Shown here one piece after another: positions 1 through 29,219 of a stretch of 64,000 nucleotides of DNA. Where the stretch lies: assembly GCF_009834125.1 (NCBI RefSeq), contig NZ_CP047146.1, positions 5,325,501 to 5,389,500 of the forward strand. The letters are read 5' to 3'. This stretch comes from Streptomyces sp. GS7 (lineage in GTDB: Bacteria; Actinomycetota; Actinomycetes; Streptomycetales; Streptomycetaceae). Each line of letters opens with the position of its first letter. The first letter of the stretch is position 1. The position numbers were made by a program, and so were the translations under genes. Under the pieces are notes generated by a model. It did not search any database, was not told the DNA's origin, and saw nothing but the letters and a program-made list of their open reading frames with translations.

Positions 1-1215
1 CGCTGAAGCCGAACGCGCTCAGGGCCGCGACGCGCCTGCCCTGGCCGTTGGGCTGCCACGGCCGCAGCGTGGTGTTCACGTGGAAGGGACTTTCGGTGAG
101 TCGGATCGCGGGGTTGGTCTCGTAGTGGTGGAGGGACGGCGGGATCTGGCCGTGGCGCAGGGAGAGCACGACCTTGAGCAGGCTCGCGACGCCCGCGGCG
201 GAGGTGGTGTGGCCGAGGTTCGTCTTGATCGAGCCGAGTGCGCAGGTGTCGCTGCCGCCGGCCGTGCCGAACGCGGCGACCAGCGCCCGGCATTCGATGG
301 GGTCGCCGAGCTGGGTGCCGGTGCCGTGCGCCTCGACCATGCCGATCTCCGCCGGGTCGATGCCGAATTCGGTGTGCACCTGGCGGATCAGGCGCTCCTG
401 CGACACGGCGCTGGGTGCGGTGATGCCGTTGGTCGCCCCGTCCTGGTTGACGGCGGAGCCGCGGATCACGGCGTGGATGTGGTCGCCGTCGGCCAGTGCG
501 TCCGACAGGCGGCGGAGCACCACGACACCCACGCCCTCGCCGGGGACGAATCCGTCGGCGGCGGCGTCGAAGGTGTGGCACTTGCCGGTGGGCGAGAGCA
601 TCCCGCCGCGGCCGGCCGCCAGGTAGGTGTCGGGGGTGGTCTGGACGCTGACGCCTCCGGCGAGGGCCATGTCGGTTTCGCCGCTCCACAGGCCCTGGCA
701 GGCGAGGTGGAGGGCGACCAGTGAGCTGGAGCAGGCCGTGTCGACCGCGATGGCGGGGCCCTGGAGGTTCAGGTGGTAGGCGATGCGCGCCGGTACGACC
801 GAGGGCGCGGTGCCCCATGCCGCCTGTGCGGGCGGCGCGTCCTCGAACCACTGGGGGTAGTCGCCACCGGTGCAGCCGACGTAGACGCCGCACCGGCGGC
901 CGTCCAGGGAGGAGCCCGCGTAGCCGGCGTTCTCGATGGCCGTCCACGCCTGTTCGAGGAACAGCCGCTGCTGGGGGTCGGTGTAGGTGGCTTCGAGGCC
1001 GGTCAGGTTGAAGAAGCGGGCGTCGAACCGGTCGATGTCGTCGAGGAAGCTGCCCGCCCGGCAGGAGAGTTCGTCCTGGCTGTAGCCGGAGAGATCCCAC
1101 CGTTCGACCGGGCCGACGAGGTCGCGGCCGGCGGCGAGGTGCTGCCAGAGGGCGTCGGTGTCGTCCGACTGCGCGAAGCGGCCGCTGATCCCGACGATGG
1201 CGATGGGTTCGCGGC
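1..1215 (-). other. PKS module 7: KS only, cut by window edge
   Basis: KS with Cys4961 in DTACSSSL, EAHGTGT and a variant NLGH in place of NIGH. The sequence ends inside the last conserved block of the KS. It is closely similar to the module 5 KS: both have a VGC..GDY stretch and PPAQA-WGT. Nothing can be said of its processing domains. Confidence 0.75.
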
Positions 1216-4200
1216 CTTCGGGGCGCGGCGGTGCTCCGGCGACATCCGGTGCGGGCACCGGTGCCGCTGCGGCGGGTGCCGGTGCCGCCGGGGCGACCAG
1301 TTGCGGCCGGTGGCTCTCGACGATGTGGGCGGCGAGCTGCGTCACGCTGCGGTGGTCGAAGATGACGGTGGTCGGCAGGTCGGTCCCGAGCTGCTGGTTC
1401 AGGCGCTGGACGAACCGGACGCCGACGATGGAGTCGAGGCCGTAGTCGGCGAACGCCCGGTCCGGGCCGATCCGTTCGGCGGGCATGCGCAGCGCGTCGG
1501 CGAGTTCGGCGAGGACCACGTCCAGGACGGTCCGGGCCGCAGCGGACGCGGGGGCCGCAGCCGCCGCCGTCGACGGCTGAGCCGGCCGGGCCGGCGGGCT
1601 GCTCACCTCGGCCGTTCCGGAGGGCAGGCGCGGGCTGCGGGCGAGACCGTCGCTGTGAGCCACGACGACCTGCTGTCCGAGCGCCAGGGCGTCTCGCGCG
1701 GGGTGGCGGATGCCGGTGAAGCCCTCCTGCTCCAGTACGAGTTGCCAGGCCGCCGGCGACAGTGCGGGACTGCCGGGCACCCGCAGTTCGGCGTCGTCGT
1801 GGAGCCACCAGCCGTCGAGCAGGCCGAAGGTGAGGTGGTTGACGAGGTAGAAACTGCTGATCTCGTTGAGGGCCAGCATTCCGTTGCCGCGCAGCAGCGC
1901 CTTGGCGTGCCGCACGGCAGGGCGGATGTTGTCGGTGGCGTGCAGCACGTTGGCGGCGATGACGACGTCGAAGGCGCCGGTGTCGAGCCCCTGGTCGTGC
2001 GGGGGCCGGGCCGCGTCGAAGATGCGGTACGTGAGGTGGTCGCGGCCCGGTCCGAAGGTGTCCTGGGCGTTCTGCAGGAAGGCCGGGGACAGGTCGGTGA
2101 AGCAGTACTCGGCCAGGGCGAGCCCCTCGCGGGCGAGGCGTTCGAGCACCGGGCCCGTGGTTCCGCCGGTCCCCGCGCCGATCTCCAGTACGCGCAGGCG
2201 GGCGCCCGGTTCGGCGTCCCGGCGTGCGCGCAGGAACGCCGCCACGTGTTCGGCGAGGACGGCGTTGAAGTGCGCGGCCACGCGGTTGTCGCGGTAGACG
2301 CCTTCGACGAGGGAGAACTCCCCCTGGGGGAACAGCACGTCGGTGGCGCGCACCCGGCCGCGCAGGATGTCGGCGAGCGCGGGCAGCGTCTGGTCCAGCA
2401 GGTGCAGCGGTGCGCGCAGATCGGGGTTGGCGGCGGCCCAACGGGGCGTCCGCGCGGCCCAGTCGGCGCGGCAGGCAGCGGCGTCCCGGGCGGTCGGGCT
2501 GCCGGTGCTCCAGCGGCCCTGATCGTCGATCATTCCGTGCTCGGCGAGCGTGCGCAGGGTGGCCGCGAGCCAGCCGTCGAACCGTGCGTCGACGCCCTGC
2601 TGTTCCGTCCACCGGGAGATGCCGTGGCGCGGCTCCTCCAGTCCCGCCCGGCGCAGTTCGGCGGCCAGGCGGCGGAGCAGGCAGGCGTCGATCTCGCCCG
2701 GGACCGGGCCCGCGTGGTAGGCGGCCAGGTCGGTGGGCAGGGCGAGGGCCGCGGCGCCGTCGCGGGCCGCCGCGCCGTGCGCCTGCGGGGTCAGCGTCTC
2801 CGCGGTGAGCACCCCTTCGACGGGCAGCGGACGGCCGAGGCGCATGAAGCCGATCTGGTGGAGCGGTCCGGCCAGCAGGCGCTCCAGTGCGCCCATCGCC
2901 GTGGCCGGGTCGATCGGCGCCAGTCCCATGGACGTCACGTCGCGCAGCAACTCGTCGGGGACGTTGCCCCAGTAGCCCCAGTTGACGACCTTGACCCGGC
3001 AGTCCAGCGCCTCGCGCAGGGCGGCGGCGTGCGCGTCCTCGAAGGCGCAGGCCGCCGAGTAGTGCGCCTGGTGGGAGTTGCGGATGAAGCTCACCAGCGA
3101 GGAGATCAGGAGGACGAAGTCCAGGCGGTGGCCGGCGAAGACGTCGGCGAAGTGCACGCACGGGTCGACCTTGGCCGCGAGGGTGGCCTCCAGTTCCTGC
3201 TCGGTCATCCGGGCGAGCGGCGTGTGGCTGAACACCATCGCCAGGTGCACCACGCCGTCGATGCGGCCGTGGCGGCGGACGACCTCGTCCCGCATGCGGG
3301 CGAGCGCGCCGGGGTCGGAGGCGTCGGCGGACAGGTAGACGGGGGTCCGCCCGCCCGCCGCGGCCCGGGCCGCCCTGGCCCGGATGTCGTCGTCCTCGGC
3401 GCGGCGGCCGACCCATACGACGTGTGCGTGGTGGTGCCGTACGAGGTACTCGCTGAGCAGTACGCCGAGGTCGCCCGCGCCGCCGATCAGCACGTAGACG
3501 CCGTCGCGGCGCAGCACCGGCTCGGCGGGCGGCGGGGTGGCGTCCACCGGCAGCAGCTGGCGGCGCAGCCACTGTCCGCCGCGGCGGGCGAGCGGGTGTG
3601 CGCGGCGGTCGGCGGGCAGCGCGAAGACCTCGTCGGCGGCGAACGGTTCGCCGTCGGCCAGGTCGACCGCGCGGATCCGCCAGTGCGGCTGTTCCTTGGC
3701 CAGGCCGCCGAGCAGGCCGTGCAGGCTCGCCTGCGCCGGGTCGGCGGTCCCGGAGCCGCCCGCGTCGAACGCGCCGCTGGTCAGGAGGGTGAGTCCGAGC
3801 CGCTGTTCGTCCCGGGTGAGGGCCAGTGCCTTCAGGACGCGGAACATCCGGCGGATCGCCGCGCGCTGCGTGCCGATCTGAGCCTCGGCGTCCTGGGCGG
3901 CGGCCCCGGTCGGGAACCGCATGACGACGTGGTCGAAGTCGCCCAGGGCGGCGAGTTGGTCCCGTACCTCTTCGGCGGAGGACGCCGCGGTGTCCAGCAC
4001 CGCGGTCTGCGGGCGGTGGTCGGTCAGCTCCGTGAGGACCTCCGGTTCGAGGCCGATCGCCACCACGCGGGAGGCCGCGGACGGGTAGGGGCTGCCGCGC
4101 AGCAGCCGGACGGGTTCCCAGACGGGGTGCAGGGTGAGGTCGCCGGCCGGCAGCTCGTAGGAGTGGGCCGGCCGCGCGGGCGGTGCAGGTGGGGCGGGCG

Positions 4201-29160: not shown

Positions 29161-29219
29161 GCCAGGCCCGCAGCGGAGGGTTCCCGGGTGATGGCAGGGC
29201 AGTTGTCCAGCGGGTTCAT
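29157..29219 (-). CDS. possible 20-codon leader ORF coupled to the AT-TE gene
   Basis: An ATG at 29219 preceded closely by GGGGAGG opens a 20-codon frame that ends in TGA at 29159-29157, overlapping the GTG start of the AT-TE gene as GTGA. The peptide (MNPLDNCPAI...) matches no family I know. The spacing between GGGGAGG and the ATG is only two bases, which weakens the case. Its value would be to bring ribosomes to the poorly preceded GTG. Confidence 0.4.
   Translation of the reverse strand: MNPLDNCPAITREPSAAGLA

Follow-up and report, generated by a model that had tools for sequence, protein, structure and literature searches.

A probable iso-migrastatin-type trans-AT polyketide synthase cluster in Streptomyces sp. 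GS7

Results

The genome of Streptomyces sp. GS7 encodes a modular polyketide synthase (PKS) operon within the 64,000-base stretch analysed here (the window; G000:C1:5325501-5389500, within a single 9,067,183-base contig). The original prediction had assigned window positions 1 to 29219 to a glutarimide-type trans-acyltransferase (trans-AT) PKS. That class is supported by the clades of the first three ketosynthases (KS1–KS3) and of the AsnB-like amidotransferase (AMT), and the data are more specific: the window very probably holds the regulator-proximal part of an intact trans-AT PKS cluster of the iso-migrastatin (mgs) type. Judged from its sequence, the product is likely to be iso-migrastatin or a close congener. 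The cluster is of an already known kind, closely duplicating a characterised pathway, and no new mechanism is needed to account for it.

Three ketosynthases matched solved structures from the S. platensis isomigrastatin system. For KS3, the top match by fold and by sequence was PDB 4qyr, titled S. platensis isomigrastatin ketosynthase MgsE KS3 (1260 bits over 615 residues; 90% identity over 603 columns, 89% over 526). KS4 matched 4zdn (1268 bits) and KS6 matched 4tkt (1299 bits), titled as S. platensis isomigrastatin MgsF KS4 and MgsF KS6, respectively. The entries cover residues 2544–3135 (4qyr), 551–1172 (4zdn) and 3139–3743 (4tkt), and the corresponding domains here lie at 2534–3148, ~556–1178 and ~3153–3776; with the entry numbers within some 30 residues, the positions of KS3, KS4 and KS6 in MgsE/MgsF agree. 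Likeness to the mgs locus of S. platensis NRRL 18993 also takes in the AT-TEII (acyltransferase–thioesterase) didomain, the acyl carrier protein (ACP), the AsnB homologue and the ten KS, while KS3 differs by ~10%. We assigned AT-TE to MgsB/LtmB, the discrete ACP to MgsC, AMT to MgsD, PKS1 to MgsE and PKS2 to MgsF. The whole cluster comprises eleven genes counting the regulator, and we take the mgs locus, with its regulator, to have eleven as well. Ten modules for the migrastatin PKS follow from an excerpt of PMC7930024, matching the ten KS found here.

A complete counterpart was found in S. sioyaensis DSM 40032, where the eleven genes keep both their order and their domain string. Protein identities are 83% for the SARP-type regulator, 90% for AT-TE, 89% for ACP, 95% for AMT, 89% for PKS1, 89% for PKS2, 87% for PKS3, 92% for AT-ER, 90% for the reductase, 94% for the methyltransferase and 93% for the P450 (PKS1 homologues: best 120 of 1557). 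For another strain of that species, B-5408, a table in PMC7893419 gives 100% similarity to the iso-migrastatin/migrastatin/dorrigocin cluster, and a table in PMC12424369 names the same cluster as the most similar to one in S. auratus DSM 41897.

The domain content, called with models built from the cluster itself, places ten KS in three PKS proteins. PKS1 reads KS1-DH-KR-ACP / KS2-B-ACP / KS3; PKS2 reads KR-ACP / KS4-ACP / KS5-DH-KR-MT-ACP / KS6-KR-MT-ACP / KS7-ACP / KS8-DH-KR-ACP-ACP / KS9-DH; and PKS3 reads ACP / KS10-DH-KR-ACP-TE (DH, dehydratase; KR, ketoreductase; MT, methyltransferase; B, branching). Module 3 is thus split between PKS1 (KS3) and PKS2 (KR3-ACP3). Profile searches found no AT domain inside the PKS proteins, AT-TE and AT-ER being separate proteins, which places the system in the trans-AT line. 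Two features of glutarimide trans-AT PKSs were found: a loading set of AT, ACP and AsnB-like amidotransferase beside an AT-less PKS, and a KS-DH-KR-ACP module 1 followed by a KS-B-ACP module 2, in which branching activity is predicted from domain content. All ten KS retain the active-site cysteine and the K[ST]NxxH histidine. A motif pattern had missed KS10, and the idea that this KS lacks its cysteine was rejected when inspection by eye found ETACSSS. Serines are retained in ACP1–7, 8b, 9 and 10, and the motifs of both MT domains and of the TE are intact.

A motif search of the B domain found neither HxxxGxxxxP nor HPxxxD. Among PDB sequence matches to the KS2-B stretch, the RhiE KS-B entries 4kc5 and 8oii rank second and third. 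In a Foldseek search with the predicted B-domain structure (pLDDT 74), the best matches were DH domains, and RhiE 8oii and 4kc5 came at ranks 40–41 (E 1.6e-12 and 1.7e-12). The fold and the KS2-B sequence rank thus support a RhiE-like B domain in a predicted structure that DH domains match with better scores, so fold alone cannot separate B from DH.

The amidotransferase groups with those of mgs-like clusters. Among its best 120 homologues of 7986, the first 34 are 72–95% identical, after which identity is at most 59% apart from two fragments; the matches listed include S. sioyaensis and S. chattanoogensis (95%), S. nigrescens (93%) and S. amphibiosporus (82%). A further listing of homologues covered the best 80 of 327 loci. 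In a quickly built tree of 86 rows, nine mgs-like AMTs and the window AMT share a clade (support 100); one row, L015, whose contig ends in KS1, was for that reason assigned manually to the mgs group. A further 27 loci have a KS close downstream of the AMT, and their AMTs belong to the same wider group. The original prediction had named grouping with primary-metabolism AsnB as the outcome that would speak against it; the five AsnB-like paralogues of the GS7 genome are 35–41% identical to AMT and lie far outside its group.

The ketosynthase tree comprised KS1, KS2 and KS3 from 26 of 36 loci in which a KS adjoins AMT (L015 and nine others were left out), the cluster's own ten KS and, from another PKS in this genome, three KS labelled cis-AT by assumption. 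KS1, KS2 and KS3 each form a positional clade (support 100/100) with the same-position KS of the 26 AMT-linked clusters, and within each clade the window KS group with S. sioyaensis and S. chattanoogensis. The expectation that the KS of modules 1 and 2 fall in glutarimide clades was thereby borne out, and extended to KS3. As KS4–KS10 and the three KS of the other PKS were the only other members, the set held no unrelated trans-AT KS, and the tree shows shared positional clades with AMT-linked clusters. S. noursei and Kitasatospora mediocidica are among the clade loci, and their species appear as glutarimide-type in a listing from PMC4853412.

Several observations weigh against assignment to the mgs type. 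Orthology to MgsE/MgsF was seen for three of the ten KS (KS3, KS4 and KS6), and among solved structures no Mgs entry was seen for the rest; direct comparison with Mgs sequences is confined to these three domains of MgsE and MgsF. Genes for a reductase, a methyltransferase and a P450 were all found and compared with S. sioyaensis and other genomes, and their names MgsI, MgsJ and MgsK, with the corresponding roles, are our assumption. Within the group that is sister to the mgs clade, ten AMT rows (L022, L023, L024, L033, L036, L047, L051, L059, L061 and L064) had no PKS in the fetched flank, which argues against a clean split. Finally, KR domains are missing from modules 7 and 9, ACP8a (L009:14800-14997; L009 is the left-neighbour stretch) has GFDP in place of the serine, and DH9 (L009:11593-12459) carries an insertion of ~22–24 residues inside its first motif, HxxxGxxxxP. 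Given these traits the product cannot be read colinearly, and a colinear reading from the modules was dropped.

The late-module traits recur in related genomes. The module layout and the ACP8a and DH9 defects are all found in S. sioyaensis; GFDP also occurs in S. chattanoogensis, with GFDL in Nocardiopsis, and the DH9 insertion is common to S. sioyaensis and Nocardiopsis and absent from S. ruber and Lentzea. The traits common to S. sioyaensis and Nocardiopsis are therefore lineage traits and not fresh damage. KS9 (L009:13081-14346) and KS10 (L009:9608-10873) are 88–100% identical across ~bases 600–1300 of the KS, including an identical run of 262 bases; in the same tract KS9 is 87–95% identical to S. 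sioyaensis KS9, and the S. sioyaensis KS9 and KS10 are 81–100% identical to each other. From these sequences, the tract looks like gene conversion proceeding separately in both genomes.

The operon reads leftward, as predicted: AT-TE, ACP, AMT, KS-DH-KR-ACP and KS-B-ACP were all found by profile searches and domain models on the minus strand in that order (Table 1). The operon does not end in the window but runs ~20 kb further left. The predicted end at 29219 coincides with the ATG of a short, 20-codon frame; AT-TE itself opens at a GTG. This short frame (29157-29219, minus strand), whose TGA stop overlaps the AT-TE start at 29160, could be a leader peptide or reflect a mis-set start. A listed frame at 2..23851, read as one 7950-residue protein, was rejected; it is real only in part, since its first 8 kb is a wrong frame over PKS1. 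Extension to the left, as had been proposed, located a release TE and tailoring genes (reductase, methyltransferase and P450) on the same contig. The whole cluster spans ~49 kb plus the regulator gene, with uninterrupted frames. The SARP-type regulator, likely the pathway regulator by our inference, occupies the same position in S. sioyaensis and S. chattanoogensis (87% identity in the latter), and the discrete ACP is 90% identical to that of S. chattanoogensis.

Table 1. Features of the cluster. Coordinates refer to the window unless prefixed L009 or G000:C1 (the contig).
Feature	Coordinates	Strand	Evidence or remarks
SARP-type regulator, 1213 aa	29501..33142	+	BTAD 1.6e-39, AAA_16 1.9e-19, Trans_reg_C 2.3e-11; ATPase domain; divergent from operon, at its promoter end
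AT-TE didomain, 539 aa, GTG start	27541..29160	-	Acyl_transf_1 6e-29, Thioesterase 1.1e-43; motifs GHSLGE, AFHS
Discrete ACP, 83 aa, loading ACP	27206..27457	-	weak ACP-family matches, best 3.3e-6, below curated cut-offs; serine in GILDSFG
AsnB-like amidotransferase (AMT), 656 aa	25231..27201	-	Asn_synthase 5.9e-73, GATase_7 3.7e-42
PKS1, 3180 aa	15673..25215	-	KS1-DH1-KR1-ACP1, KS2-B-ACP2, KS3; match to S. sioyaensis over full length
KS1	23926..25176	-	DTACAGS
DH1	22510..23301	-	HLVNGARIVP
KR1	21400..21945	-	GGAGGLG
ACP1	20926..21123	-	GIESI
KS2, branching-module ketosynthase	19486..20739	-	DTMCSSA
B (branching, X) domain	18046..18945	-	DH-like fold without DH active-site motifs
ACP2	17707..17907	-	GFESI
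KS3, first KS of linear extension	16354..17598	-	PDB 4qyr match
PKS2, 8055 aa	1..15613, continues to G000:C1:5316946	-	domain models; within the window KR3-ACP3, KS4-ACP4, KS5-DH5-KR5-MT5-ACP5, KS6-KR6-MT6-ACP6, KS7
KS4	12689..13936	-	PDB 4zdn match
C-methyltransferase domain, module 5	6623..7342	-	LEIGAGTG
KS6	4877..6136	-	PDB 4tkt match
C-methyltransferase domain, module 6	1592..2308	-	LEIGAGTG
PKS3, left of window	L009:11449-5516	leftward	terminal TE
AT-ER, left of window	L009:5514-3208	leftward	PfaD-family ER (enoylreductase) 2.4e-190, FabD-type AT 6.2e-84
MDR-family reductase, left of window	ends L009:2192		best NCBIfam profile curcumin reductase, 1.2e-110, below its cut-off
SAM methyltransferase, left of window	ends L009:1077		
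P450, left of window	G000:C1:5305251-5306462		

Adjoining the SARP regulator is a gene for a PAS-GAF-SpoIIE phosphatase with a kinase-like ATPase domain (33204-35660, minus strand). Elsewhere on the contig, many more PKS-like matches at ~5.12–5.19 Mb and 0.52–0.58 Mb indicate at least two other large PKS regions in the genome.

Among the listed AT-TE homologues (best 120 of 1523), Streptomyces relatives reach 96, 90, 90 and 89% identity. An excerpt of PMC11775670 describes the AT-TEII didomain (LtmB/MgsB) as peculiar to lactimidomycin (ltm) and mgs clusters, the only known example. Of the 120 relatives, 51 cover at least 95% of AT-TE, including proteins from Xenorhabdus, Longimicrobium and Chryseobacterium (40%); AT-TE didomains are more widespread than that excerpt states. 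At E 1e-120 or better, AT-TE was found in 2 of 392 evenly sampled genomes of the genus (the present one and one at 77%), so such strains are not common. P450 matches on other contigs were 78% identical in S. acidicola and 73% in Nocardiopsis.

Cycloheximide/streptimidone-type loci (S. noursei, Kitasatospora mediocidica and others) share the order of AMT followed by KS-DH-KR-ACP-KS-ACP-KS and the positional KS clades, but their AMTs are ~53–58% identical to that of the window and form separate sub-clades, as do their KS. The B-domain model, built from one cluster, stayed below threshold in these loci, a result that is uninformative about those clusters.

Discussion

By likeness to the mgs system, each catalytic step of the pathway can be proposed. 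PMC7756379 proposes that the AT MgsH malonylates the ACP MgsC, that the asparagine synthetase homologue MgsD then gives malonamyl-ACP, and that seven PKS domains convert this to a 2-(2,6-dioxopiperidin-4-yl)acetyl thioester; MgsH/LtmH is its proposed AT for loading-ACP malonylation in both mgs and ltm. The counterpart of MgsH/LtmH here is the off-window AT-ER, so the malonylating role would shift to AT-ER, with AT-TE corresponding to MgsB/LtmB (PMC11775670). AT-ER would thus malonylate the discrete ACP, and AMT would convert malonyl-ACP to malonamyl-ACP. Module 1 would extend and dehydrate the malonamyl unit; a Michael addition in module 2 would bring in the next malonyl unit, and the amide would close the glutarimide ring, both reactions being placed at the X (B) domain in an excerpt of PMC4853412. 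Modules 3–10 would elongate the chain, with C-methyls added by MT5 and MT6 and a ketone left by module 4, which has no KR, before lactone closure by the TE of PKS3. Iso-migrastatin or a close congener would then be completed by the reductase, methyltransferase and P450. These later features (the MT5/MT6 C-methyls, the module 4 ketone and TE release) presumably fit the iso-migrastatin skeleton. Migrastatin and the dorrigocins arise from iso-migrastatin in water/DMSO, according to an excerpt of PMC12843350.

Other readings of the cluster were weighed. It is improbable that the last two extending modules are being reshaped by ongoing gene conversion, as the KS9/KS10 tract, more alike within each of the two genomes than between them, might suggest; should such conversion change the substrates taken by the final modules, the strain may make a congener of iso-migrastatin altered in its terminal region.

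There is also a small chance that the cluster is of the ltm type or directs another glutarimide macrolide. The ltm cluster likewise has the AT-TEII didomain (PMC11775670) and the matching loading set, ltmHCD/mgsHCD (PMC7756379), and related clusters can keep the early modules and change the later ones. The same first six modules, in the same domain order, occur in S. ruber (L103–L105), where module 7 has an MT and module 8 a single ACP, and in Lentzea xinjiangensis (L106–L108), where the last module has an MT; neither gave a match to the reductase, methyltransferase or P450 in the stretches read, and these variants likely make other glutarimide products. Against an ltm-type cluster, the AMT is closer to those of S. 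sioyaensis, S. chattanoogensis and S. nigrescens than to the S. amphibiosporus protein (presumably LtmD), AMT being the sole protein compared with that species. Among the PDB entries compared, KS3, KS4 and KS6 match those of MgsE/MgsF, and the reductase, methyltransferase and P450 are all here at 90–94% identity to S. sioyaensis.

A silent or broken mgs-type cluster that yields no product is very unlikely. The serine-less ACP8a and the interrupted first motif of DH9 would suit it, whereas the frames stay open over ~49 kb, the catalytic residues listed above are intact, and both defects are lineage traits. AsnB-like enzymes serve many pathways, as is generally known, yet the B domain, the adjacency of AMT and PKS and the clades of KS1, KS2 and KS3 by position all match glutarimide clusters, and a trans-AT PKS in which the AsnB-like protein amidates some other substrate, leaving no glutarimide ring, is hardly credible.

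Under the iso-migrastatin-type assignment, the cluster is a closely related and intact case in which to compare known puzzles of the family: the KR-less modules 7 and 9, the serine-less ACP8a and the placement of the C-methyls. Glutarimides of the iso-migrastatin family inhibit eukaryotic translation and are antitumour leads, according to excerpts of PMC10574677 and PMC7930024, and Streptomyces sp. GS7 is one more strain with a complete genome marked as a likely source of them.

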